Source: Candidatus Zixiibacteriota bacterium (lineage in GTDB: Bacteria > Zixibacteria > MSB-5A5 > WJJR01). Taken from it: a DNA stretch of 64,000 bases. Shown here one piece after another: positions 28,267 through 41,819 of the stretch. The notes beneath the pieces were generated by a model that had not been told where the DNA came from, searched no databases, and saw nothing but the letters and a program-made list of their open reading frames with translations. Made by a program: the position numbers and the translations under genes. The DNA lies in NCBI GenBank assembly GCA_040752595.1, contig JBFMGX010000050.1, positions 2,149 through 66,148 on the forward strand, in the 5' to 3' direction. Position 1 is the stretch's first letter; each line of letters starts with the position of its first letter.

Positions 28267-30501
28267 GTGACCTGGCACATTGCCATCGCAGTTCTGTACT
28301 TCGCCCTTGGGGCGGTCCTGGTTTGGCTGGGGGCCGTCATCCTGCGGGAGAATCCCCGGAGCCGCATCAACCGGGTCACCGCCCTGATGTTGCTTTTGGC
28401 GGGGCTGGGGCCGGTGTTCGCGTCGGTCGGCAGGGCCATGGAAACCCAGGGACCGCCGTCGCCGATCTCCAGCGTCCCGTTTCCGTATAGTCTGTTTTAC
28501 ATCTGGGAGTTGTTCTTTCCGCAACTGCTGTTGTTCGCCCTCGTGTTCCCCTCCGAGCGTCGGTGGGTCTCGCGCTTCCCGCGGCTCAAGTTCCTGATCT
28601 ATGCGCCCTACGTGTTCCACGTGGTCTGGGTCGCCTTCCTGGCGCGCCCAGGGTACGTCCGCCTGTCCGTTGCGGCCGAGTCCGATCTCCTCCAAGCACT
28701 GCTCGTGCCCCTGAACATGGGATTGCGCTTCCTCTCGTTCTTGCTGGCGCTCTTGTTTGACGTGCACGTGAAGTTCTTTTCGCTGATCAACCTGGTGTAC
28801 ATCGTGGCGGCCGTCTGGGCGTTGCGCGGCGGGTACAAGGAAGTCACGAACCGCCGGATCCGGGACCAGGTCCGCATCATCATCCGCGGCATCCGGGTGG
28901 CCGTCGGTCTCTATGCGATTGCCTTTATCGCCCCGACACTGGGCATCGTCCAGGTCGCCGCCCCGTTGCGTGAAGGGCTCACCGTCCTGGCCCTTCTGGT
29001 GGGCTCTGCGTCCATTGCCTGGTCGATCATCCGGTATCAGTTTCTTGACATCCGGTTGATCGTCCGACAGTCGGTCGTCTTCACGGTCACGTCGGCGCTG
29101 CTGGTCGGCGTGTACCTGCTTCTGGTGACCGAGGTGTCGACCATCGTCAAGAAAGTCCTCGAGGTCGAGACACCGGCCATCGACATCGCCTTTGTCGTGC
29201 TCGTGCTGCTGTTCTTCCAACCGGTGAAGCAGCGTGCTGACAATCTGATCACGCGGTTGTTTCTGCGCGATCAGGCCGATCCGCGGACGATTCTCGAATC
29301 ATTTTCCGCCCAGATCGCCTCGGTGTTTGAGGTCCCGGATCTGAAGCAACGGATGCTCTCGGTCGTCACGGAGCAGATGTTGGTGGAGCAGGCGTTCTTT
29401 GCCGTACGTCATCCCAACGAGAACCGATTCGTGCTGGAACTGGCCGGGCTCCAGGGTGAGACACTCCCGGCCAATGACACGTTCTTTCTGGAGGCGCAAA
29501 GGCGGGGACGGCCGACCGTCTTCGAGGATTTCGTCGTCGATCAGGCCCTGACGCCGGTGACCGAGATTCTGGGGCGATGGGGATGCCGTCTGGTCGTCCC
29601 GATCGTCGAGCGGGGAACCCTGACAGCGGTCCTGTTTTTGGGGGAGAAGATCTCGGGGTACAGATACATGCCCGAAGACGCCAATCTGCTGGCGACCCTG
29701 GCCAATCAGATGGCGGTGGCGATGACGAACGCCGGGCTGTACCGCGAGGCGCTGGAGAAGCAGAAGCTGGAGGATGAGCTGGACGTGGCCCGTCGCATCC
29801 AGATGCGGCTGCTGCCGCGCCAGATGCCGTGTGGGCCGGATTACCATGTCGCGGCCTTCACGCAGCCGTCGCGACAGGTCGGCGGCGACTACTATGACTT
29901 CTTTCCGTCTCCGGATGGCCGGCTGGGGCTGGTGATTGCCGATGTCTCGGGCAAGGGTCTGGGGGCGGCACTGCTCGTGTCGCAGTTGCAGGCGATTCTC
30001 AAGTCCGAAGTCCGGGGCAAACGGTCGCTCCGAGAGTGCGTGGCCAACGCCAACGTCCTGATCGCGGAGGCGACGTCGCCTGAGCAGTTCGCGACCCTGG
30101 TGTACGCGGAATTCGATCCCAAGACCCGCGTACTGTCCTACACCAATGCCGGCCACAACTACCCGATTTTAGTTCGCGCCGACGGGCGTCACGAGCACCT
30201 GGATTCCGGAGGGCTGGTCCTGGGCGTCCTGAGACACGCTGTCTACGAGGTCGGGCAGGTCCATTTGCAGCAGCAGGACACAGTGTTCTTCTATACCGAC
30301 GGGCTCTGTGACCTGCAGAATCCTGCGGGCGACGATTTCGGCGAGCGACGTATCCTCGAGTTGGTCCGCGATCACCGGCATCTGACGGCGGATGGACTGA
30401 AGGATGAAGTCGTGCGGCAGGTGACCGCGTTTGCCGCCGGTGAACGGGGGGGAGACGACCTCACAGTCATGGTGTTGAAAGCCGCGCCGCCTGTGGTATA
30501 G
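28267..30501 (+). CDS. Multi-TM SpoIIE/RsbU-type PP2C phosphatase with GAF domain
   Basis: A 744-residue protein from a GTG start with AGGGGGTG upstream. The N-terminal ~320 residues contain about eight to ten TM helices. A GAF-like sensor follows (about 340-490), then a linker helix (LEDELDVARRIQMRLLPRQ) and a SpoIIE/PP2C domain (about 530-740) with GGDYYDFF, IADVSGKG and GGDDLTVMVLK metal-binding motifs. It should dephosphorylate the STAS protein in response to a membrane or GAF signal, closing the partner switch formed by the two preceding genes. Confidence 0.93.
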   Translation: MTWHIAIAVLYFALGAVLVWLGAVILRENPRSRINRVTALMLLLAGLGPVFASVGRAMETQGPPSPISSVPFPYSLFYIWELFFPQLLLFALVFPSERRWVSRFPRLKFLIYAPYVFHVVWVAFLARPGYVRLSVAAESDLLQALLVPLNMGLRFLSFLLALLFDVHVKFFSLINLVYIVAAVWALRGGYKEVTNRRIRDQVRIIIRGIRVAVGLYAIAFIAPTLGIVQVAAPLREGLTVLALLVGSASIAWSIIRYQFLDIRLIVRQSVVFTVTSALLVGVYLLLVTEVSTIVKKVLEVETPAIDIAFVVLVLLFFQPVKQRADNLITRLFLRDQADPRTILESFSAQIASVFEVPDLKQRMLSVVTEQMLVEQAFFAVRHPNENRFVLELAGLQGETLPANDTFFLEAQRRGRPTVFEDFVVDQALTPVTEILGRWGCRLVVPIVERGTLTAVLFLGEKISGYRYMPEDANLLATLANQMAVAMTNAGLYREALEKQKLEDELDVARRIQMRLLPRQMPCGPDYHVAAFTQPSRQVGGDYYDFFPSPDGRLGLVIADVSGKGLGAALLVSQLQAILKSEVRGKRSLRECVANANVLIAEATSPEQFATLVYAEFDPKTRVLSYTNAGHNYPILVRADGRHEHLDSGGLVLGVLRHAVYEVGQVHLQQQDTVFFYTDGLCDLQNPAGDDFGERRILELVRDHRHLTADGLKDEVVRQVTAFAAGERGGDDLTVMVLKAAPPVV

Positions 30502-30609: not shown

Positions 30610-31170
30610 ATGACCGACGAGAATCGACGCCATGATCCCGGGAACTACCGCTTCTGTCCTTACTGTCGGGCGGCCTTGGTCCGACGGCAAGACGGCGCGC
30701 ATGAACGACTGCGCTGCCCGGACTGCGACTTCGTCTATTACCACAACCCGGTCCCGGCGGCCGGAGGAGTGATCCACCGGAATGGCGCGATTTGCCTGGT
30801 CCGCCGTGCCGTGGAGCCGCGCAAAGGGCACTGGTCCTTGCCGGCCGGGTTCATGGAGTACAATGAGGCGCCGCGCGAGTGCGCGCGTCGCGAGATCCGT
30901 GAGGAGACCGGTCTGGATGTCACTGTGGGCGACGTGCTCGGGGTCTATTGCGGCTTCGATGATCCCCGACAGCATGCCGTGTTGATCGTGTTCTGGACAC
31001 GAGAGCTGACATGGCAGGCACCTGTGGCAGGCGATGATGCCGATGCGATCGAGTTCTTCCCGCCCAGTGCGATACCGGACGACATCGCCTTCCGGGCTCA
31101 CAGAGAGGCGTTGCAGGATGTGCTCAGATCGGGGCGTGTGTCGCCCGCGCCCGGGCAGGAGACGACTTGA
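30610..31170 (+). CDS. Nudix hydrolase with N-terminal zinc ribbon
   Basis: A 186-residue protein. Two CxxC pairs (FCPYC and RCPDC) form a zinc ribbon, followed by a complete Nudix box, GFMEYNEAPRECARREIREE plus TGL. The ribbon-Nudix layout resembles NudC-like NAD(H)/ADP-ribose pyrophosphatases, but the NudC-specific SQPWPFPxS motif is absent, so substrate is open. CGGAGAA precedes the chosen ATG; in-frame upstream ATGs exist. Its stop overlaps the start of the next gene by one base. Confidence 0.9.
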   Translation: MTDENRRHDPGNYRFCPYCRAALVRRQDGAHERLRCPDCDFVYYHNPVPAAGGVIHRNGAICLVRRAVEPRKGHWSLPAGFMEYNEAPRECARREIREETGLDVTVGDVLGVYCGFDDPRQHAVLIVFWTRELTWQAPVAGDDADAIEFFPPSAIPDDIAFRAHREALQDVLRSGRVSPAPGQETT

Positions 31171-32897
31171 TGGATACGGTGCTGCATGAGTTGAGGCGTC
31201 ACGCAACCGTCTGTGGCGGCGTCGCGTGGGTCATCGGTTTGCTGTGTTCTGCGTCTGTCTCGTCGGCTCGCGTGGTCACCGAAGTGGCCACACTCACGGC
31301 GGATCGCCGCACCTTCGTGTTCCACCCGACAGCCGGCGAGGTTGTCCAGGGCGGACATGATGAACTCGGTTTGACACCCAGCGCGCGGGACACTCTGCGG
31401 GCCGTCTTTGACGACTCCGGCCTGATCTCAGGCGGCCGCTTGATCGCGCCCGAGAGCCTCTATGTCGTGACACAGGTCAGCGATCCGACCCATGTGACCC
31501 TCTCGTTTGTGACATCCGATTCACTGCCCCTTGGGGGCACGTCTCTGCGCTGGCGTGTGCGTCAGACGGTCGATGTGGGTGCGGAGGAGTTTTGGCCCGG
31601 GGCTCTGTTTGTTTTCGATGGCACGGTTTCCATTCGGGGGGAAGTGGGCGGTGACGTCATCGCCGTCGGCGCGGACGTCACCATCGGCGAGGCCGCCACG
31701 GTGCGTGGGGCGGTCGTCGTCATCGGAGGCATTTTGCGGCAGCGGGGTGACGCCAAGATCTATGGTCCGGTCTTTGCGCCCGGTGGTCATCGTCGCCCCC
31801 GACTGTCGGTGACGCGGGCTTGGGAATTCGAGGAGCGCGGTTTCCACTGGGCGCCGACATTCTCCTACGACCGAGTCGACGGCGCGCGTCCGGGAGTCAC
31901 CTTGGACGTGAAGCGCTCGCCGTATACGCCACACCTGGGACTCGCCGGGGCCTATGCCGTTGCCTCCGAGACGTGGCAGTACAAGCTGGACATCCGTCAG
32001 CGCCTGTCGCGTAAGATCGACCTGACGGCCAGTGTGACGATCTTCCGCTTGACGCGAACGGACGACGAGTATTGGGTCGGCCGTACTCCGAACACCGTCT
32101 ACGCGCTGGTGGTCGGTTCCGATTTTCGGGACTACTACGGTGCCGACGGCGGTGGCGTATCGCTGACCTACAAGTACCGTGAGCGCGGCGTGCTGTCGGT
32201 GACCTATGAGAATGCCGATTACCGCCCGCTGGAGGCTCATCCCGAGCTCTGGCACCTCTTTCGTCCGGATCGTGATTTCCGGGAGAACTTCAGCACGTTG
32301 GACGTCGCCGCCCGTGAGTTGCTTCCCGAAGCGCTGGCGGGGCGCAACCGCGCCGTGACCCTGAAGCTGGCGGTGGAGCCGATTCAAGCCGGCCGTCCCG
32401 AATCCGGGTTCAACGGGGCGGGATCGGTGGCATTGGAGACCGCCGGCGGCGGGCTCGGGGGCGATTACGAATACGACCGATGGACCATGCAAGTGAAGGG
32501 GTGGTGGAAGAACGGCTGGTCGCACCGGGCCGCCGTGCGCGCGTTCTACGGTATCTGCCGCCACGATCCTCCCCCCAACAAACTGTTCTATCTCGGCGGG
32601 GTTGGCTCGCTGCCGGGATACTCACAGAAAGTGCTTTACGGTGACGAGGCCTTTCTCCTGAACCTGGAATATCGCTTCAACTACTGGGCGACCCGGATGT
32701 TCGATGGCGGCGTGATTCTGTTCTTCGATGTGGGACGCGCAGCTCCCAGCCGCCGCTTCTGGGAGTTGAATGAGTTCAAGCCCGACATCGGCCTGGGGAT
32801 GGCCCTTGGTGAGGAGTTCCGGTTGGACGTCGCCAAGGGACTCGATCATTCCGACCGGGAGTTTCGCGTCCGACTCCTGGTGGGCGACTCCTTCTAA
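31170..32897 (+). CDS. Omp85/BamA-like outer-membrane barrel protein
   Basis: A 575-residue exported protein. A signal peptide (VIGLLCSASVSSA) precedes an N-terminal beta region with a polymer-like 'EVGGDVIAVGADVTIGEA' repeat segment (about 150-205, bactofilin-like). A C-terminal half of alternating strands ends in F. GGVGSLPGYSQKVLYGDEA and NLEYRF resemble the Omp85 loop-6 region, and DREFRVRLLVGDSF a barrel end. No POTRA domains are evident, so this is a shorter patatin/D15-like relative and probably not BamA itself. CAGGAGA precedes the ATG, which overlaps the Nudix stop. Confidence 0.78.
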   Translation: MDTVLHELRRHATVCGGVAWVIGLLCSASVSSARVVTEVATLTADRRTFVFHPTAGEVVQGGHDELGLTPSARDTLRAVFDDSGLISGGRLIAPESLYVVTQVSDPTHVTLSFVTSDSLPLGGTSLRWRVRQTVDVGAEEFWPGALFVFDGTVSIRGEVGGDVIAVGADVTIGEAATVRGAVVVIGGILRQRGDAKIYGPVFAPGGHRRPRLSVTRAWEFEERGFHWAPTFSYDRVDGARPGVTLDVKRSPYTPHLGLAGAYAVASETWQYKLDIRQRLSRKIDLTASVTIFRLTRTDDEYWVGRTPNTVYALVVGSDFRDYYGADGGGVSLTYKYRERGVLSVTYENADYRPLEAHPELWHLFRPDRDFRENFSTLDVAARELLPEALAGRNRAVTLKLAVEPIQAGRPESGFNGAGSVALETAGGGLGGDYEYDRWTMQVKGWWKNGWSHRAAVRAFYGICRHDPPPNKLFYLGGVGSLPGYSQKVLYGDEAFLLNLEYRFNYWATRMFDGGVILFFDVGRAAPSRRFWELNEFKPDIGLGMALGEEFRLDVAKGLDHSDREFRVRLLVGDSF

Positions 32898-33450: not shown

Positions 33451-35229
33451 ATGGGCGAAGAGAATATGGGTGAAGTCAAAGAAAAAGGCGGGAAGAGCAG
33501 CGCCCTGAAACGTGCGGGCGCCCCGGATAGTTGGGCGACGGATACCGATCGTGTCCCCACGATCTTCGACTCGCTGGCCGAACCGGTCGATGCCCTTGCT
33601 TCTGACGTGGACAGCGACCGGCCGAGAGCGCGCAATCTGGAAGCGCTCCTGGATGTATCCAAGGCGATCAATTCCACACTCGTCCTGGATGACATCCTGA
33701 AGCGGGTGATGCGGCACGCGATCGCGCTCCTCAATGCCGAACGCGGCTTTCTGATGTTGCTGGACGACAACGGACAATTGCAGGTCCGCACCGCCCACAA
33801 CATCAACAAGGAAACGTTCACGACGGCCGAAGATTTCCTGATCTCGCGTTCCGTCGCCAACCGAGTGGCCGCGCGCGGCCAGTCAGAGTATACCTCCAAC
33901 GCCCAGGAGGACCCCCGTTACGCCCACCAGCAGTCGGTGGCCGAATTGAACCTGCGCTTCATTATCTGCGTGCCGCTCAAGATCAAGGATACGGTGATCG
34001 GCGTCTGCTATCTGGACAACCAGTCGCGCGCCGGACTGTTCGGCAAGAGTGACCTGCGACTCTTCGAGTTGTTTGCCGAACAAGCGGCCATCGCCATCGA
34101 GAATGCCAAGCTGTACGAGCGGCTGCTCTCCTTGACGCGTTACAACGAGAATGTGGTCAACAAGACCCCGGTCGGGATTTGTGTGCTGGACTACCAACTG
34201 CGAATCCTGACATTCAACGCCGCCGCCGAGCAGATCTTCCATGCGCCCGAGGACACGTGGACGGCCGGTTCGCTGGTCCAGGAGCACCGGCTGCTGGTGG
34301 AAATTCTCCCCCCCTCGGAGCGGGAGTGGTGGGATCGGACTCTGACCGAGGTTGTTCGTAGTCACAAGCCGCTGGCCAAGGACAAGTACTTCATCACGAT
34401 CGGCGGCTGCGAGACGGTCCTGTCGCTGAAAATCTCCCCTTTGAACGGCATCCCCGGCGAGCCGCCGAAGGTGATCGTCGTGGCCGAAGAGATCACCGAC
34501 CAGGTGATGCTCGAGAAGTATGTCATTCTCTCGGAGAAGATGGTGGCCAAAGGCGAGATGGCGGCCGCCATCGGCCACGAGCTCAACAATCACCTGGAGA
34601 TTCTCCAGGCGCACTCCGAGCTTCTGCCGATCCATCTTCGGGGCAGCCGTCTGGACAAGCTCTCCGAAAGCTGCGCCCGCATTCAAGACTCCATCGAGAA
34701 CATGGCGCGGTTCACCCGGGGGTTGATGGATTACACGCAGATCGACACCGAGTTGGTCGAGCACGACATCAAGGACCTGGTCGAAGAGCACCTGTTCACG
34801 ATCCGTCCGCTACGGCTGTTCAGCAGCGTGCGTTTCACCTGTGATTTCGCTCCGGGACTGCCGCCGGTGAAACTGGACGCCGGGCAATTGCAGTCGGTCC
34901 TGCTGAATCTCTACAACAACGCCGTTGACGCCACGCCCTCCGGCGAGACCTGCGCCATTCACATTCAGGCGCGGCACCGATCCGAGTCCCAGACCGTGGA
35001 GCTTTCGATCCGCGACAATGGACCCGGTATTGCCCCCGAGCATCTGACGCGCGTCTTCGAGCCGCGCTTCACCACCAAACGCGGCGGGCATGGACTCGGG
35101 CTGTCCAACTGCCGGACGATCATCCAGAATCACGGCGGGACCATTCGCGTCGAGAGCACACCCGGCCACGGAGCGACGTTCTCCATCGAGTTGCCCGCGC
35201 ACCGTCCCTACTCGTCGTTCGGAAGCTGA
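33451..35229 (+). CDS. Sensor histidine kinase (GAF-PAS-HisKA-HATPase)
   Basis: A 592-residue soluble kinase. A GAF domain (about 60-225: LNAERGFLMLLDDNG, IAIENAKLYERL) is followed by a PAS domain (about 235-350), a HisKA-like segment with phosphoacceptor GHELNNHLEIL, and an ATPase domain with N box LLNLYNNAVDA, G1 DNGPGI, F box FTTK and G2 GHGLGLS. No TM helix, so it senses a cytoplasmic signal. No response regulator is adjacent; a Ser/Thr kinase gene follows 52 bases later. The first ATG is used; a second at codon 6 is equally possible. Confidence 0.92.
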   Translation: MGEENMGEVKEKGGKSSALKRAGAPDSWATDTDRVPTIFDSLAEPVDALASDVDSDRPRARNLEALLDVSKAINSTLVLDDILKRVMRHAIALLNAERGFLMLLDDNGQLQVRTAHNINKETFTTAEDFLISRSVANRVAARGQSEYTSNAQEDPRYAHQQSVAELNLRFIICVPLKIKDTVIGVCYLDNQSRAGLFGKSDLRLFELFAEQAAIAIENAKLYERLLSLTRYNENVVNKTPVGICVLDYQLRILTFNAAAEQIFHAPEDTWTAGSLVQEHRLLVEILPPSEREWWDRTLTEVVRSHKPLAKDKYFITIGGCETVLSLKISPLNGIPGEPPKVIVVAEEITDQVMLEKYVILSEKMVAKGEMAAAIGHELNNHLEILQAHSELLPIHLRGSRLDKLSESCARIQDSIENMARFTRGLMDYTQIDTELVEHDIKDLVEEHLFTIRPLRLFSSVRFTCDFAPGLPPVKLDAGQLQSVLLNLYNNAVDATPSGETCAIHIQARHRSESQTVELSIRDNGPGIAPEHLTRVFEPRFTTKRGGHGLGLSNCRTIIQNHGGTIRVESTPGHGATFSIELPAHRPYSSFGS

Positions 35230-35281: not shown

Positions 35282-38200
35282 ATGTCTGCGGCTTCCATCC
35301 CGATCGGACCCTATCGTGGCGTCGCCGTTGGTCACGGCGGCTTCGCCGGCGTCTATCAGGTCGCCGATGTCTCGGGCCGGCCGCGAGCCCTGAAGTGGGC
35401 GGATGCGTCGGCGGATCCGGCCTTGACGACGGCGCTGGAGCGCGAATACGAGATCCTGTCGCAATTGGTGTTCCCCCAGTTACCGCGGGCATGGGATTTC
35501 GGTGTCGCCGAGGGCCGTCCGTACATGGTGAATGATTGGATCGGGGGTCCGTTGCTGTGGGACCGCTTCACGTCCCCGACCGCCGATGATTTCGTGCATG
35601 TCCTCCGGGAGATGTCCACCGTTCTCCTCTTCCTACATCGGCGCGGGTGGGTGCACGGGGATCTGAAGCCCGACAATTTCCGTTGGCGCCCGCCACAGCC
35701 ATCCCACGTCGCTTCGGAGATTTCGGATACGCTCTGCCTGCTGGATTTTGGTCTGGCCCGTCCAGTGGGTGATCCGGGTCGGCCCCGCGGGGCGGGCACG
35801 GTCGGCTACTGTGCCCCGGAGTTCCTGAAATGTGAACCGGCCGATGGACGCGCCGACTGGTACGCCGTCGGCGCCATTCTCTATGAATGGACCTATGGTC
35901 GCCGTCCCTTCGCCTCCTCGGAAACGGCTATGGAGGTAGCCGGGCACCTCGAGACGGCACCGGAGTTCAGTTTGCCACAGGTCAAACCGGCGCCGGAGTG
36001 GGCACAGACCGTTTTGGCGCGTCTGTTGGCCAAGAATCCCAACGAGCGGGGCCGCGACGACCTCGATCTCCTCCGGTGGCTGGCCGAGTATGACCCCGCA
36101 CTGGAGCTCGAAGCCCTTCTTAATTCGCAACTACCCTGGCATCTGCGCAGCGAAGAATGCCGCTGGGACGACCAAGAACGGCAGTTCGTGGAGCAATTGG
36201 TCGATGAAGCGGAAGCACGCCATCAGATACACTGGGCGGTTTGGGGGTGTGGTGACACCGCACCGCGATTGCCCCGCCAACTGGCCTTTGCCCTGAGCCG
36301 GAGAGGGTGGTCTGTCCGCTGCGTCCCCGGGGCCGATGCCGCGGACTCGTCCGCTGATGCCGTCCCGGTCGAGGCGACCATCGATGATTGCGGCGTGACG
36401 CGTCGCGTCGAATGCCACTGGTCGCCTGTCCCACAACCTGACGTCACGGACCCACCGGCTTCGGACACCACGCGGGCTGTCGACTTCCTGCCGTGGGACG
36501 TGCAACGTGTTCGCGAGTTCCTAACGCGGTTGACCGGCGATGAGGACTTCGCGGCCCGGACAGCGGCGACCGTGGCTGGCGCAACAGGCGGGATCCCTAC
36601 GGCAGTGTCGGCGCTCATCCGCTGCCTGATTGCGCAAGGGGACTTGCGTCTGTCTCAGGGTGATTGGAATCTCAATGAGAGCGGTGTGATCAGTTGGGCG
36701 GCGACAGACGATGCCGCGGCGCTGTTCCGCTCCGTGACCGGTGATCTGACGGATGCCGAAGCCCGCCTCATCGATTGGCTGGCGTTGGGACGGTCGTGCG
36801 GTCACCTTACCATCTTGAACGATCTTTGGGATAGACCCGGAGATGATCTGCTGTCGGTCGTCGATCGTCTCGCTCTGCGGGGCTTGATCATCTGCCAGAA
36901 TCTGGCCCCAGAGGAGCCCTGCTTCGATGTCCGCCTGCGCTTTCCCGGGTGGGATGTGGTCCGGCGGGCCGGGATGTCCGCCGGCGAACGTGCACGGGAT
37001 TCTCTGGCGCTGGCCGAGGCCATCGAGGCGCGCCGACTGCGTCCCGATCTGCTGCGCGAGAGTGTGCTGGCCGATTGCTGCGCCGACGGCGGCGATTGGT
37101 CGAATGCGGCCCGGCACGCGCTCGCGGCGGCCGTCTTGGAGATCGACGACGACCAGCGCGATGCCGCACGCCGTCACATCGTCGCGGCGGAATTGGCGGC
37201 CCAGCGCATCGACGAACCCTCGCTGCGGACCCACTGGCAGGGGCGGGCCCGGATGGTGCAGGGGGATCTGGAGAAGGCCTCCGGCCACCTTGACGTTGCC
37301 CATCGCCTCTATCGCGAGATCCTCGTGTTGGGGCGCAAGAATGGTGATCTGCGCCTTCTGGCCGAGACGCTGAAGGACCTCGGCGATCTCTATCGGATCA
37401 CGCGCCGGTTCGAGAAGGGCGTGCGGGCGTTGAGGCGGGCACGACGGCTTTGGGAAGAGGTCGGCGACCGTCTGGAGCTTGCGCGAACGCTCACGAACAT
37501 TGGGAACATGTACTGGGTTGCCGCCGATATGGCGTCGGCCCAGCAGTACTACCAGGAGGCGCTCGCCATCCAACGGCAGGAGCCGGGGGGCGAGACGTTT
37601 GCCGCGGTGATCCTGACCAACCTCGGCGCGGTCAATCTGGTCCAATATGCCTACACCGAGGCGGAGGCGCACTTCCGTGAGGCGTTCTCCATTCACCAGC
37701 GTCTGAACGATCCGGTGGAAATGGCGCGCTCGTTGAACAACCTCGGTGCCTTGTTCTTCATGCAGGGATGGCTGGAAGATGCGGCGTCGCTGTTTGAGGC
37801 GGCGGCCGAACACAACCGCGGCGCCGACGCCAAGAGCGAGGAGTTGTTCAATCGTCGAAACCTCATTGAAGTCGCTTTGGAGCGTGGGGACCTCCGCCAT
37901 GCAGTGACCTTGGGAGTTGCCGTTTTGGAACGGGCCGACGACCTCGGCGATATCGCCACCGGAGCCGAGGTGGCCGCGTTGCTGGCGGAGGCCCATCTGC
38001 GTGCCGGTGACTTCCGCACCGCGCAGACATATGTCGCACGGGGAGAGCAGGCGCTGGAATCGATCAAGAATGACGATCTGCGGATCGGCTTGGCGTTGGT
38101 GGCAGCATCGCGACGGCACCGACTCGGCGACCAGCGGGGGGCTCTCGCGGTGCTTGATGCGGTGGTTCCGCGCGGGACGTCACTGGCGAACGGTCACCTC

Positions 38201-38761
38201 CACGTCGACTGCCTGATCTTGAGACTGAGCGCGGCGGTTGCGATGCGGGATGAGTCGGCGGGGGCGTTGTGGCAGGAGGGACGCGCGGCCGCCGAGCGAG
38301 TCGGCGCCCCTCACAAGGCCGCCCATTTGGCCTTCGCGCGCCTGGCAGAGCATTCCACTGGGGGGGTCGATGACGCAGCACGTCGCCACGTTGAGGAATT
38401 CCTGGATCGGTCGCCGCGTTGGCACTGGGCGGCCGCCTTTCAGGTCTGGCGGGCGCAGTGGCAGGCGCGGCAGGGCGATGCGCATGCTGCCCTGTCAACA
38501 GTCAGTCGCGCCATCGCGCAATTGCGTCGCGATGGGAACTGGGACACGCTCTGGCGTGCATTGGTGGTGCAGGGACATCTGTTGCATGACCAGGCCGACT
38601 ATGAGCCGGCACTGCGGTCGCTGAATGAGGCGGCGCGTATTCTCAAGGCGATCACACAGACGATCGACTCGACCGGAGACCACGCGCAGTATGAGGGGCA
38701 GCCGCTGGCGTGTATGCTGTCTGAAACGGCCCGGCGCATTCGGGAACTGGTGGCGTGTTAG
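35282..38761 (+). CDS. Ser/Thr protein kinase with C-terminal TPR array
   Basis: A 1159-residue protein. The Hanks-type kinase domain (about 8-265) has Gly loop GHGGFAGVYQV, Lys about 38 (ALKWAD), catalytic loop HGDLKPDN (Gly for the Arg of HRD), DFG (LLDFGLA) and GTVGYCAPE. The central part (about 330-640) recalls the ATPase module of STAND-type kinases, but I see no P-loop. From about 640 on, TPR repeats follow (AETLKDLGDLYRITRRFEKG, LTNIGNMYW, LNNLGALFFMQG). GGTGGA precedes the start. Probably works with the GAF-PAS kinase directly upstream; targets unknown. Confidence 0.9.
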   Translation: MSAASIPIGPYRGVAVGHGGFAGVYQVADVSGRPRALKWADASADPALTTALEREYEILSQLVFPQLPRAWDFGVAEGRPYMVNDWIGGPLLWDRFTSPTADDFVHVLREMSTVLLFLHRRGWVHGDLKPDNFRWRPPQPSHVASEISDTLCLLDFGLARPVGDPGRPRGAGTVGYCAPEFLKCEPADGRADWYAVGAILYEWTYGRRPFASSETAMEVAGHLETAPEFSLPQVKPAPEWAQTVLARLLAKNPNERGRDDLDLLRWLAEYDPALELEALLNSQLPWHLRSEECRWDDQERQFVEQLVDEAEARHQIHWAVWGCGDTAPRLPRQLAFALSRRGWSVRCVPGADAADSSADAVPVEATIDDCGVTRRVECHWSPVPQPDVTDPPASDTTRAVDFLPWDVQRVREFLTRLTGDEDFAARTAATVAGATGGIPTAVSALIRCLIAQGDLRLSQGDWNLNESGVISWAATDDAAALFRSVTGDLTDAEARLIDWLALGRSCGHLTILNDLWDRPGDDLLSVVDRLALRGLIICQNLAPEEPCFDVRLRFPGWDVVRRAGMSAGERARDSLALAEAIEARRLRPDLLRESVLADCCADGGDWSNAARHALAAAVLEIDDDQRDAARRHIVAAELAAQRIDEPSLRTHWQGRARMVQGDLEKASGHLDVAHRLYREILVLGRKNGDLRLLAETLKDLGDLYRITRRFEKGVRALRRARRLWEEVGDRLELARTLTNIGNMYWVAADMASAQQYYQEALAIQRQEPGGETFAAVILTNLGAVNLVQYAYTEAEAHFREAFSIHQRLNDPVEMARSLNNLGALFFMQGWLEDAASLFEAAAEHNRGADAKSEELFNRRNLIEVALERGDLRHAVTLGVAVLERADDLGDIATGAEVAALLAEAHLRAGDFRTAQTYVARGEQALESIKNDDLRIGLALVAASRRHRLGDQRGALAVLDAVVPRGTSLANGHLHVDCLILRLSAAVAMRDESAGALWQEGRAAAERVGAPHKAAHLAFARLAEHSTGGVDDAARRHVEEFLDRSPRWHWAAAFQVWRAQWQARQGDAHAALSTVSRAIAQLRRDGNWDTLWRALVVQGHLLHDQADYEPALRSLNEAARILKAITQTIDSTGDHAQYEGQPLACMLSETARRIRELVAC

Positions 38762-38810: not shown

Positions 38811-38846
38811 GAAAAAGAAACGGCCGCCGCTTGGGGCGACGGCCGT
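38811..38846 (-). terminator. Rho-independent terminator of the 25-aa peptide gene
   Basis: On the minus strand, ACGGCCGTCGC and GCGGCGGCCGT form an 11-bp stem (one G-U pair) around CCCAA, followed by TTCTTTTTC. On the plus strand the same position is a C-A mismatch with no T-run, so the signal is directional. Confidence 0.85.
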
Positions 38847-38865
38847 CGGTTCCGGGGGTTGAGAC

Positions 38866-38943
38866 TCAACCGCCGCCGACACTGATGCCGATCGGAGCGA
38901 GCTTGTCCTCGAGGACCTCAACCTCCAAGGTGTAAACCTCCAT
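38866..38943 (-). CDS. 25-aa peptide gene, candidate RiPP precursor or secreted peptide
   Basis: Encodes MEVYTLEVEVLEDKLAPIG followed by ISVGGG: an acidic, amphipathic first half and a small Pro/Gly-rich, Gly-Gly-Gly-ending tail, the leader/core look of a ribosomal peptide precursor. Translation is well supported by GGGAGGTGAG five bases before the ATG. Transcription is supported by a consensus promoter (39240-39268) and a directional terminator 20 bases after the stop. The nearest same-strand gene is a PqqD-M50-HlyD fusion that could bind, cut or export it. No modifying enzyme such as a radical SAM protein is visible in the window, so modification is speculative. Confidence 0.7.
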   Translation of the reverse strand: MEVYTLEVEVLEDKLAPIGISVGGG

Positions 38944-38984
38944 CAACTCACCTCCCTTCTCCGGGTTACTGCCGGTGGTTGACT

Positions 38985-39017
38985 GGGCCGGGCACCACCC
39001 CGGCCCGATCTTTTTTC
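38985..39017 (+). terminator. Plus-strand terminator, probably for the Ser/Thr kinase transcript
   Basis: GGGCCGGG/CCCGGCCC stem (38985-38992 and 38999-39006), then GATCTTTTTTCTTCT. It lies beyond the peptide gene, so a plus-strand transcript from the kinase gene would run antisense through that gene before stopping. Confidence 0.75.
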
Positions 39018-39198
39018 TTCTCAGTGTATCAGATCATCGTTGCGGGGTGTGTTCACGCCCGCTTGACATACCTTCCCTGGCTTAGGGCCTCACATCCTGT
39101 ACTCTCTGATCAGACTATTCACACAGCCATACTGGCCGTCGTCCACGCGTCCATGCGGGTAAGCAAAGCGAGTAAACGCAGCAGGGCATTGGTCTTTC

Positions 39199-39225
39199 CG
39201 GGATGAACGGCTGCAGGTTCATCCC
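39199..39225 (-). promoter_or_regulatory. Stable hairpin in the leader of the peptide gene
   Basis: GGGATGAAC/GTTCATCCC, 9-bp stem with a seven-base loop, just downstream of the predicted start of transcription in a leader of about 290 bases. The rest of 38944-39418 holds no convincing ORF. Confidence 0.55.
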
Positions 39226-39239
39226 ACCGACCTGAGTCT

Positions 39240-39268
39240 ATTCTAGCCGACAAAAACCGTCATGTCAA
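39240..39268 (-). promoter_or_regulatory. Consensus sigma-70 promoter reading towards the 25-aa peptide gene
   Basis: On the minus strand: perfect TTGACA (39268-39263), 17-base spacer, TAGAAT (39245-39240). Transcription would begin near 39233, about 290 bases before the peptide start. Confidence 0.8.
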
Positions 39269-39418: not shown

Positions 39419-41749
39419 CTACCACCACGACCAGAATTCCACGCGGAAGAACTGGATGACGCGGCGGGCCAGAAGAGCGAGAATCGGACGGCGGCCGCAG
39501 GCGATCTTGGCATAGCCGCTCATTCCCGGCTTGAGGATATTTTCGAGATTGCTAATCTCCGTAGTTACAAGGAAGCGACGGCGCGAGCCGATCGTGTCGG
39601 CATCGGCGGCGATCTCGGCGACGCGGCCGCGAAACTGTGTGAACGGCAGCGGCCGGACCTTCAGGGCCACGGGGGCACCGGCACGGACGTCGGCGATGTC
39701 GTTCTCGTCGACCCAGAGTTGCAGGCGGACGGGATCGAGGTCGGCGACCTCCACCAGGATGCCGGTGCGCTCGACGCGGGTCACAATCCCGTCGATCGGA
39801 GCGATCAGTGTCGAGGCGGCAATCTGGGCGCGCAGGAAGTCGATCTGGGAATCGAGGGCGGCGATCTCGGCCTCCTTCACGGCGATTTCCTCCGCCTTCG
39901 GCTCCGAGATCAAAAGCGCCAGGGCGGAGTTCTTGGCGTCCTTTTGCGCCTTGGCCTTCTCCATGTCGGCGCGCTTGGCCTGCAGTTCGGCCTCGGAAAT
40001 CAGATTGCGCTCGTACATTCTGCGGCCGCGTTCCAACTCCAGCTCCCGGTTCTCCAACTGCGCCTGTGCCTCCGCCAGTTGCGCCCGCAACTCCAGTACC
40101 GCGTCCTTCTTGGGACCGGAGAACAGCAGGTTGAGCTCGGCGCGCGTGCGATTCTGCTCGGCGATTCGTGTTGCCAGTTGTGCCCGGTACCGATTGGAAG
40201 ACATGACCACCAGCGTGTCGCCGACATGGACGCTGTCGCCCTCGCGCACGCGCAGGTCATAGGCCACGACGGAGAACTCCGAAGTCGTGGCCTGGAGCAC
40301 CGAGCGCTCCCGTCGGGTCGTCGGCCGGCCATTCCCGGATGTTCCGCCGACATACAATGTCGCTTCGAGCGTGCCGCCGGTCGGCGAGGTCACCGTGTAG
40401 CGGGAGACGGCCTCCACCTCGCAGGCGGAGCCGACACGTCGCTCCAGCCGGATGATCGCCGACAGGACGATGATGACGACGAGCGTGCTCCAGAAGAACA
40501 GCGGCTTGCGCGAACGTCGTGGGTGCGTTGTCACTTCCGCTCCTCGGTCATCTTCCGATGTGGCTGACCCCGACGGTGCGAGCGCCGTGAAGGCGAGGAT
40601 GCCGATGAGGGCATACAGAATCACGACACCGGCGCCGCCCCAGTGAGCATATGCAAGAAGGGTGGCATGGTAGAGTATCACGCCGACCAGCGCGGTCGTG
40701 TAGAGGGCCGCGAACAGGCCATACCAGAAGTAGATTCGCCGTGCACGCGGTGCGGCCGGTGATGCCACATCGGCCCCGCCGATGATCCAGCGGCGAAGGA
40801 TACCCCGCCAGTGGGCAAAGGCCCGGGCACGCAGATTGGGCATCCGCAACCAATCCACGAGCAGGTAGTAGCCGTCCAGTTTGATCAGCGGGTTGAGATT
40901 GAACAGCACCAGAGCCAGGGAGACGGTCACCAGCACCTGCAGGAAGTGCGACGCCGCCGTGGCCGGTTCGAGCAGGCGCCAGAGGAGGATCGCCACCGCC
41001 GTGAGAAGCCCCTGGAAGAACAGACCGGCAAGACCGACGTGCAGGCGCCAGTTGCGTCGGGGTAGAAGATAGGAGTCACTGATATTGGAGTAGACGCACG
41101 GTTGGAAGTAGAGCAGCAGGAAACCCATCTCGTGCACCGAACCACCATAGTACTTCAACGTCAGTGCATGTCCGAATTCGTGCACGTAGGCGATCACGCC
41201 GATGGCCGCCAGCAACATCGGGATCGATGCAAAATGCCACAGGCCGGCGCTCCCCAACCGCCAGGCGGTGCCTTGCGCCGTGAGGGTCAGCGTGGCCCCT
41301 GCCATGACGATGAGGGCCGTCGCGACGGTGAGCGGCCGAAACATCAGACGCAGGACGGGCAACCACCGAGTCAGCAGTCGATCGGGGTCGAAGGCGGCGA
41401 TGGGGATGGTCCAGACGGAAGCACGGCGCCGTCCCCGTACAGTCCGTGCCAGTTGTCCGGTGACGCGCTCGATGGCGGGCCCCTCGAAGAAGAGCAGACG
41501 CTCCATCCGTGCGAAGAAGGCGGCGGCGGCCTCGTGGCCCAGTTGGATGTTAAATCGCTCTTCGGTCTGGCGGATCGCCTCAGCCAGGGATATCTGGCCG
41601 TCGGCGCGTGTCAGCAGGTAGTGCTCGGGGGCGCGCAGGCGAAAGAAGCGTCCGGTGAGCGGATCTTTGATGATGTAGACCGGCTGCGGGCTCCCACCTT
41701 CGACGTGGACAACCAGATCGGAGCGCAGCCGGGGCAGGGTGTCGGTCAT
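39419..41749 (-). CDS. PqqD-like/M50 zinc metalloprotease/HlyD fusion protein
   Basis: A 776-residue protein. A PqqD-like peptide-recognition domain (about 10-90: YIIKDPLTGRFFRLRAPEHY, TRADGQISL) is followed by a multi-TM site-2-protease domain with zinc motif HEFGH (190-194), PCVYSNISDSYLLPRR and the second motif NPLIKLDG (286-293). The C-terminal part (about 420-770) is a HlyD/RND adaptor with a long coiled coil and half-lipoyl segments (VREGDSVHVGDTL, then STLIAPIDGIV). Such 'peptide zinc metalloprotease' proteins accompany ribosomal peptides and act in processing or export (YydH-like). GAGGGG precedes the ATG. The 25-aa peptide gene lies downstream on the same strand. Confidence 0.9.
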   Translation of the reverse strand: MTDTLPRLRSDLVVHVEGGSPQPVYIIKDPLTGRFFRLRAPEHYLLTRADGQISLAEAIRQTEERFNIQLGHEAAAAFFARMERLLFFEGPAIERVTGQLARTVRGRRRASVWTIPIAAFDPDRLLTRWLPVLRLMFRPLTVATALIVMAGATLTLTAQGTAWRLGSAGLWHFASIPMLLAAIGVIAYVHEFGHALTLKYYGGSVHEMGFLLLYFQPCVYSNISDSYLLPRRNWRLHVGLAGLFFQGLLTAVAILLWRLLEPATAASHFLQVLVTVSLALVLFNLNPLIKLDGYYLLVDWLRMPNLRARAFAHWRGILRRWIIGGADVASPAAPRARRIYFWYGLFAALYTTALVGVILYHATLLAYAHWGGAGVVILYALIGILAFTALAPSGSATSEDDRGAEVTTHPRRSRKPLFFWSTLVVIIVLSAIIRLERRVGSACEVEAVSRYTVTSPTGGTLEATLYVGGTSGNGRPTTRRERSVLQATTSEFSVVAYDLRVREGDSVHVGDTLVVMSSNRYRAQLATRIAEQNRTRAELNLLFSGPKKDAVLELRAQLAEAQAQLENRELELERGRRMYERNLISEAELQAKRADMEKAKAQKDAKNSALALLISEPKAEEIAVKEAEIAALDSQIDFLRAQIAASTLIAPIDGIVTRVERTGILVEVADLDPVRLQLWVDENDIADVRAGAPVALKVRPLPFTQFRGRVAEIAADADTIGSRRRFLVTTEISNLENILKPGMSGYAKIACGRRPILALLARRVIQFFRVEFWSWW

Positions 41750-41819
41750 GGGCCGCCCCTCGTTCACACCGCAGATTACCACTCTTGCGACCGGGGCGGC
41801 AAGGACGAATCGGCCTCAG

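Follow-up and report, generated by a model that had tools for sequence, protein, structure and literature searches.

On the minus strand of the 64,000-nt stretch of Zixibacteria DNA analyzed here (the window), we have characterized a 25-codon gene for a small peptide, MEVYTLEVEVLEDKLAPIGISVGGG, which recurs throughout the phylum and is co-inherited with a gene encoding an RRE(PqqD)-M50 protease-HlyD fusion protein. According to our preferred reading, to which we assign a probability of roughly 0.6, the N-terminal leader of the peptide docks on the RRE domain of the fusion, the M50 protease cuts after an Ala-Pro pair, and the C-terminal core thus released leaves the cell, its most likely role being that of a signal. 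No published description of this peptide gene was found in the literature, and judging from the sequence comparisons it is probably a secreted signal peptide of a kind undescribed before in Zixibacteria.

A conserved peptide gene with its own control elements

A base-by-base check of positions 38811-39268 placed the promoter, leader, Shine-Dalgarno (SD) sequence, 25-codon frame and terminator all on the minus strand:

39240-39268, minus strand: sigma-70-type promoter, TTGACA-17-TAGAAT, 11 of 12 consensus bases
38944-39233, minus strand: 5' leader RNA of about 290 nt (transcription start inferred)
38984-39007, minus strand: G+C-rich hairpin 5' of the SD, an intrinsic terminator too when read on the plus strand
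38974-38982, minus strand: block TCAACCACC, complement of the SD region GGTGAGTTGA apart from a single bulge
38949-38959, minus strand: Shine-Dalgarno sequence GAAGGGAGGTG
38866-38943, minus strand: peptide gene, 25 codons plus stop (ATG at 38943, stop ending at 38866)
38893-38943, minus strand: predicted leader, residues 1-17 (MEVYTLEVEVLEDKLAP), ending in Ala-Pro
38869-38892, minus strand: predicted core IGISVGGG, residues 18-25
38819-38847, minus strand: intrinsic terminator of the peptide gene, a 12-pair stem with 9 G-C pairs followed by TCTTTTTCGT

The consensus promoter, near-perfect SD, 25-codon frame and terminator proposed in the first-pass annotation were all recovered, each of them on the minus strand, the strand having been left unstated. 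The promoter is the sole promoter-like site within 3 kb (0.3 expected in a shuffled 3 kb), and the leader of about 290 bases, described as structured, indeed folds better than its shuffled versions (z -3.15; 1 of 200 shuffles equally good). The best reading of this arrangement is a monocistronic gene with its own strong promoter and SD at one end and its own terminator at the other. An Rfam search of the whole window, leader included, returned no match above the gathering score, and Pfam and NCBIfam gave nothing above cutoff for the peptide; one homologue weakly matches the ammosamide/lymphostin leader model (15 of 30 bits, below cutoff).

Homologous frames were first noticed beside relatives of the upstream M50-HlyD gene. 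A profile of 16 peptides searched in 132 genomes (class-level and phylum-level sets equal in number) detected the peptide in approximately 104 of these Zixibacteria, mostly with E values below 1e-5; 105 genomes match at E 0.5 or better, one of which (G050, E 0.128, with an internal stop) was discounted. Most of the genomes are draft assemblies, and the ones that have named records are metagenome assemblies; the named contigs bearing the peptide, among the matches listed, are mostly assigned to 'Candidatus Zixiibacteriota' or 'candidate division GN15', which places the phylum as Zixibacteria. An unannotated gene of 21-35 residues is thus common across an uncultured phylum (FCB group). Its products share LExxxAP and usually carry SxGGQ at the C-terminus or close to it, with the consensus MxxYxLxVExLExKIAPxGxSxGGQ. 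The motif counts that follow refer to the best peptide of each of 95 genomes. L(-7), E(-6) and P(-1) are present in 95 of 95 and A(-2) in 93; the core statistics of the same peptides, on which our delineation of the core is based, give a median length of 8 residues, with Ser in all 95, GG in 82 and a C-terminal Thr in none.

The pattern of codon substitution argues for translation. Over 32 sister pairs, the pN/pS ratio is 0.11 for the 12 codons up to AP vs 0.47 in the tail, and it reaches 1.26 and 1.75 in the two wrong frames, so that purifying selection is seen in the proposed frame and is absent from the other two. The SD is conserved phylum-wide (79 of the 95 loci have 8 nt or more of AAGGAGGTGA ahead of the start), a sigma-70 site with at least 10 of 12 consensus bases lies upstream at 58 of 93 homologous loci (5.9 expected from shuffles), and a terminator-like stem, as judged by eye, follows the stop in nearly all relatives. 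Frame, start, SD, promoter and terminator are therefore all kept in relatives, and this combination is the pattern of a real micro-gene. The first-pass annotation had named a frame without conservation in close relatives as grounds for refutation; this check was run, and the proposed gene withstood it. We consider it virtually certain that the 25-residue frame is a genuine, translated gene; on this comparative evidence it is a micro-gene transcribed on its own, whose leader half is conserved while the tail varies more freely. The first-pass division into a leader-like half and an APIGISVGGG tail thus stands in outline, except that APIGISVGGG is probably not one tail: by analogy with daptides, AP would be the end of the leader and IGISVGGG the core.

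The RRE-M50-HlyD fusion as predicted protease and exporter

The gene upstream of the peptide encodes a protein combining three recognizable parts:

39419-41782, minus strand: RRE(PqqD)-M50 protease-HlyD fusion, 787 aa, M50 and HlyD assigned by Pfam
41489-41743, minus strand: RRE/PqqD-like domain, residues 14-98 (PF05402 recognized in 11 of 18 members, with 3.1e-5 as the best value; predicted bbb-aaa fold)
41168-41182, minus strand: zinc-protease motif HEFGH (HExxH), residues 201-205

The first ~100 residues match several NCBIfam PqqD models too, and the predicted structure of the N-terminus contains three strands followed by three helices, the elements of an RRE; a PDB search with the RRE profile produced marginal matches only, PqqD included at E 0.81. 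The HExxH motif and Asp303 are invariant in 58 homologues, and the C-terminal part resembles MacA and EmrA, the adaptors of tripartite pumps. The fusion scores 1.3e-61 against the daptide intramembrane protease model NF041824 (208.8 of 300 bits, below the family cutoff) and weakly against the EpeP-type model NF058609 (49.1 of 225 bits). Based on these features, we predict that it is both maturation protease and exporter.

The two genes are co-inherited. Among the 78 good genomes (completeness of 90% or more, contamination of 5% or less, with the M50 gene of G037, a contig-edge fragment, counted as present), peptide and M50-HlyD occur together in 64, neither occurs in 14, and no genome is discordant (Fisher p ~1e-15, the genomes being treated without regard to phylogeny); discordance is confined to genomes less than 90% complete. 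Since the genomes missing both belong to several families and genera, the two appear to have been lost jointly more than once. At 51 of 95 loci M50-HlyD is found upstream of the peptide at a distance of no more than 2.5 kb, and in several families the two are far apart in the genome. In genomic terms the exporter link is well supported by this co-inheritance, as translation is by selection, and the peptide is very probably the substrate of the RRE-M50-HlyD protein. This would make it a concrete candidate substrate for such fusion proteins.

In the mechanism that we propose, leader residues 1-17 would dock on the RRE (PqqD-like) domain through the alternating Y-L-V and LExxxAP. A leader bound to an RRE forms an additional beta strand (PMC7470986), and it is from the fit of YxLxV to this mode that we infer docking. 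The intramembrane M50 protease would then cut after Ala-Pro, freeing a Ser/Gly-rich core of ~8 residues. The assignment of this site, which we regard as rather likely, follows the conservation of L(-7), E(-6), A(-2) and P(-1) and the analogy with daptides, in which the leader reads ELExMEAP, an RRE is fused to an S2P protease, and the cut falls after Pro (PMC10036551). For export of the core IGISVGGG we propose passage via the HlyD adaptor and a TolC-type channel from an unlinked gene; the locus itself contains neither TolC nor ABC partners.

The comparison with daptides shows both shared and differing features. Daptide precursors (DapA/MpaA) are likewise short peptides with L(-7), E(-6), A(-2) and P(-1), but in Zixibacteria position -4 is K/R instead of M and position -3 is I/V instead of E. 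The daptide protease DapP/MpaP also has an RRE fused N-terminally to a site-2 (M50) protease, whereas the Zixibacteria protease carries in addition the HlyD fusion. The Zixibacteria cores, of ~8 residues, have no C-terminal Thr and are Gly-rich rather than aliphatic, and no set of oxidative decarboxylase, aminotransferase and methyltransferase (DapB/C/D/M) was noticed among the locus neighbors. As far as the sequences tell, the peptide would be daptide-like in leader recognition but, with no C-terminal Thr, it is not a daptide. The epipeptide YydF/EpeX, which is epimerized by a radical SAM enzyme, offers another parallel, as an M50 protease (EpeP, of the LiaK family) may act there as cutter and exporter of a small peptide, although that system is without an RRE-HlyD fusion. 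EpeP is thought to perform both of these steps itself (PMC10885120).

More distant relatives, PqqD-M50-HlyD genes with ~25-38% identity, are found on alphaproteobacterial plasmids (loci L202-L207 with L208-L212), where in several cases they adjoin genes for large or giant surface-type proteins. An LE.R-type motif is present in 3 of 5 such N-termini (IEPRILLSA, LEPRMMFDA and LEPRYVFDG), one of which NCBIfam calls LEPR-XLL. The LEPR-XLL/DUF4347 surface proteins therefore resemble our case in combining a distant RRE-M50-HlyD with an N-terminal LE.R-type motif in the candidate substrate. They differ in their length of hundreds to thousands of residues, in the presence of TolC and further adaptors in the operon, and in the residues that follow the motif (LL/MF/VF vs AP in Zixibacteria). 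These few cases give hints that LExR/LExxxAP N-termini might be a general docking signal for RRE-M50-HlyD exporters. The alphaproteobacterial pairs of PqqD-M50-HlyD and surface proteins could also represent a general secretion route.

The kinase pair and the role of the core

Downstream, two kinase genes run toward the peptide gene:

35282-38761, plus strand: Ser/Thr kinase-TPR protein, predicted sensor, convergent with the peptide gene
33451-35229, plus strand: GAF-PAS histidine kinase, upstream partner of the Ser/Thr kinase

At 84 of 95 loci the kinase-TPR gene faces the peptide gene in convergent orientation at a distance of no more than 3 kb, with a median gap of 50 nt; in most loci the GAF-PAS histidine kinase and an Omp85-like gene accompany it. 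This synteny persists where M50-HlyD sits tens of kb away or on another contig. The alignment of 63 homologues shows no variation at K38, E55, D127, N132 and D155 of the kinase or at several Asn positions of the TPR part, so the strict motif count, which found HGDLKPxN in just 47 of the 84 kinase neighbors, reflects too strict an expression. The protein has a kinase-(middle domain)-TPR layout and is modeled at pLDDT 91; Foldseek matches of this model are dominated by kinases and say nothing on the TPR ligand. Its PADLOC matches were set aside as generic kinase matches. The middle region (residues ~297-560, window positions ~36170-36961) is mixed alpha/beta and without a Pfam match; going by predicted secondary structure alone, it may be the remnant of a STAND-type NTPase. 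Genes for a GAF-SpoIIE phosphatase and an Omp85-like protein (28267-30501 and 31167-32897, plus strand) precede the two kinase genes, and similar ones recur near the peptide in many relatives.

In the last step of the proposed mechanism, the core would act as a signal between cells, or of a cell to itself, read by the kinase-TPR protein and the GAF-PAS histidine kinase. We hold the chances of this step to be evenly balanced; it is favored on account of the adjoining TPR kinase and the analogy with SHP/Rgg, in which the protease is Eep and the exporter PptAB (PMC7564271), and it is the weakest step of the mechanism. Both kinases look cytosolic, so that sensing would require the peptide to be taken up again, the route followed by RRNPP pheromones; a linked importer is not known. 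In Rgg/SHP, ComRS and other RRNPP systems, as at the 84 loci, a short peptide gene adjoins a TPR sensor gene, and an M50 intramembrane protease matures the C-terminal part into a short product, as predicted here. On the other hand, SHP precursors are hydrophobic and not RRE-guided, and RRNPP receptors join an N-terminal HTH or Rap domain to a C-terminal TPR, whereas the TPR of our candidate is attached to a kinase rather than to a DNA-binding regulator. By sequence comparison, then, the system is RRNPP-like in gene layout, with a receptor candidate that does not have the RRNPP architecture; we know of no peptide pheromone receptor built as a kinase-TPR/histidine-kinase pair. Most cores are nearly identical (SxGGQ), which counts against a pheromone role, since pheromones often diversify in sequence. 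The suggestion of a peptide signal made in the first-pass annotation nevertheless fits the conserved leader, the shorter and freer core, the co-inheritance with the exporter and the synteny with the TPR kinase. The full picture of a phylum-wide communication system, in which an octapeptide is guided by an RRE, cut by M50, exported through HlyD and sensed by the kinase-TPR/histidine-kinase pair, is more tentative, and we place it somewhat below even odds. RRNPP systems have been described from Firmicutes (PMC9765709). If the core is a signal, TPR-receptor peptide communication would extend beyond that group, with a testable ligand of ~8 residues.

The exceptions to the synteny are informative. 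Four genomes of one genus (g52; G071-G074) have altered cores (SRYGAE, SRWGAD, SKYGADG) and no kinase-TPR gene anywhere in the genome; in g52, then, the peptide does not depend on that kinase. Three of the four multiply the peptide gene, with up to 8 tandem copies (L131-L135), the copies being placed between the M50-HlyD and histidine kinase genes. Conversely, two genomes (G062 and G063) keep the kinase while peptide and M50-HlyD are absent. Taken together, these cases show a closer tie of the peptide with the protease-exporter than with the kinase.

They also bear on the possibility of a true RiPP, in which the kinase-TPR protein would phosphorylate the core Ser, as lanthipeptide kinases do, before leader removal and export. 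Such a role would account for a Ser that no core is without, and for the fact that the most constant neighbor encodes a Ser/Thr kinase whose active site is intact. The g52 cores, however, hold Ser in genomes without such a kinase, and the pairing of the kinase gene with a histidine kinase suits signaling. Near most loci the recurring gene families are the kinases, M50-HlyD and Omp85-like, with no other present, and lyases, cyclases and radical SAM enzymes are not among the constant neighbor families of the 95 loci. The first-pass suggestion of a RiPP precursor therefore survives in the leader/core pattern and the co-inherited RRE-M50-HlyD, but a constant modification enzyme at the locus is missing, unless it is the kinase; overall we find a true RiPP unlikely.

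We find it less likely still that the peptide is a secreted antimicrobial or effector of bacteriocin type with M50-HlyD as its exporter. The g52 tandem copies do recall arrays of bacteriocin precursors, and EpeP, an M50 protease, acts in the maturation of an antimicrobial epipeptide (PMC10885120). Against this, the core is tiny, neutral and Gly-rich, no immunity gene was recognized, and the sequence is near-constant over the phylum, unlike that of arms-race peptides. Our preferred reading remains that of an exported core, most likely a signal.

RNA features of the locus

A dual-function or purely regulatory small RNA, whose frame would merely control the RNA, appears improbable, and as the sole function it is largely refuted by the codon pattern, with its strong coding selection. 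It draws on a leader that folds better than chance and on complementarity between the SD and the 3' end in some families (f6 and f19, weakly f12), yet hairpin and leader length differ between families. A hairpin 5' of the SD is frequent in relatives but differs in sequence between lineages, and a leader of this length is not shared by all, the equivalent promoter of family f8 being placed mostly ~80-100 nt ahead of the start codon. The dual-function RNA proposed earlier thus finds little support. An attenuator-type leader ORF for a downstream gene, or a chance ORF, which a short and strongly equipped frame might suggest, is refuted by the phylum-wide conservation and coding selection, the terminator lying directly after the frame and the next gene being convergent.

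The block TCAACCACC is near-invariant in families f1 and f2, and its complementarity to the SD region has almost no covariation, the pairing being putative. Two further structures were considered and dropped: an H-type pseudoknot between the hairpin loop and AACCACC in f1, which is not kept in G007 and G008, and a general Hok-like sequestration of the SD by the 3' end, which is above chance clearly only in f6 and f19 and weak in f12. In family f19 (L111, L113, L115-L122) the SD stretch AACTTCAAAGGAG is mirrored right after the stop by CTCCTTTGAAAGTTG; judging from sequence, the 3' end probably sequesters the SD there (median z -2.55) and also in f6.

The hairpin at 38984-39007 being a terminator on the plus strand, the convergent kinase transcript may end within the leader of the peptide, antisense to the peptide gene. 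One genome (G023) has two peptide genes (L044 and L190), one adjoining M50-HlyD and the other alone ~180 kb off; their leaders are near-identical, and their cores differ at the last two residues.
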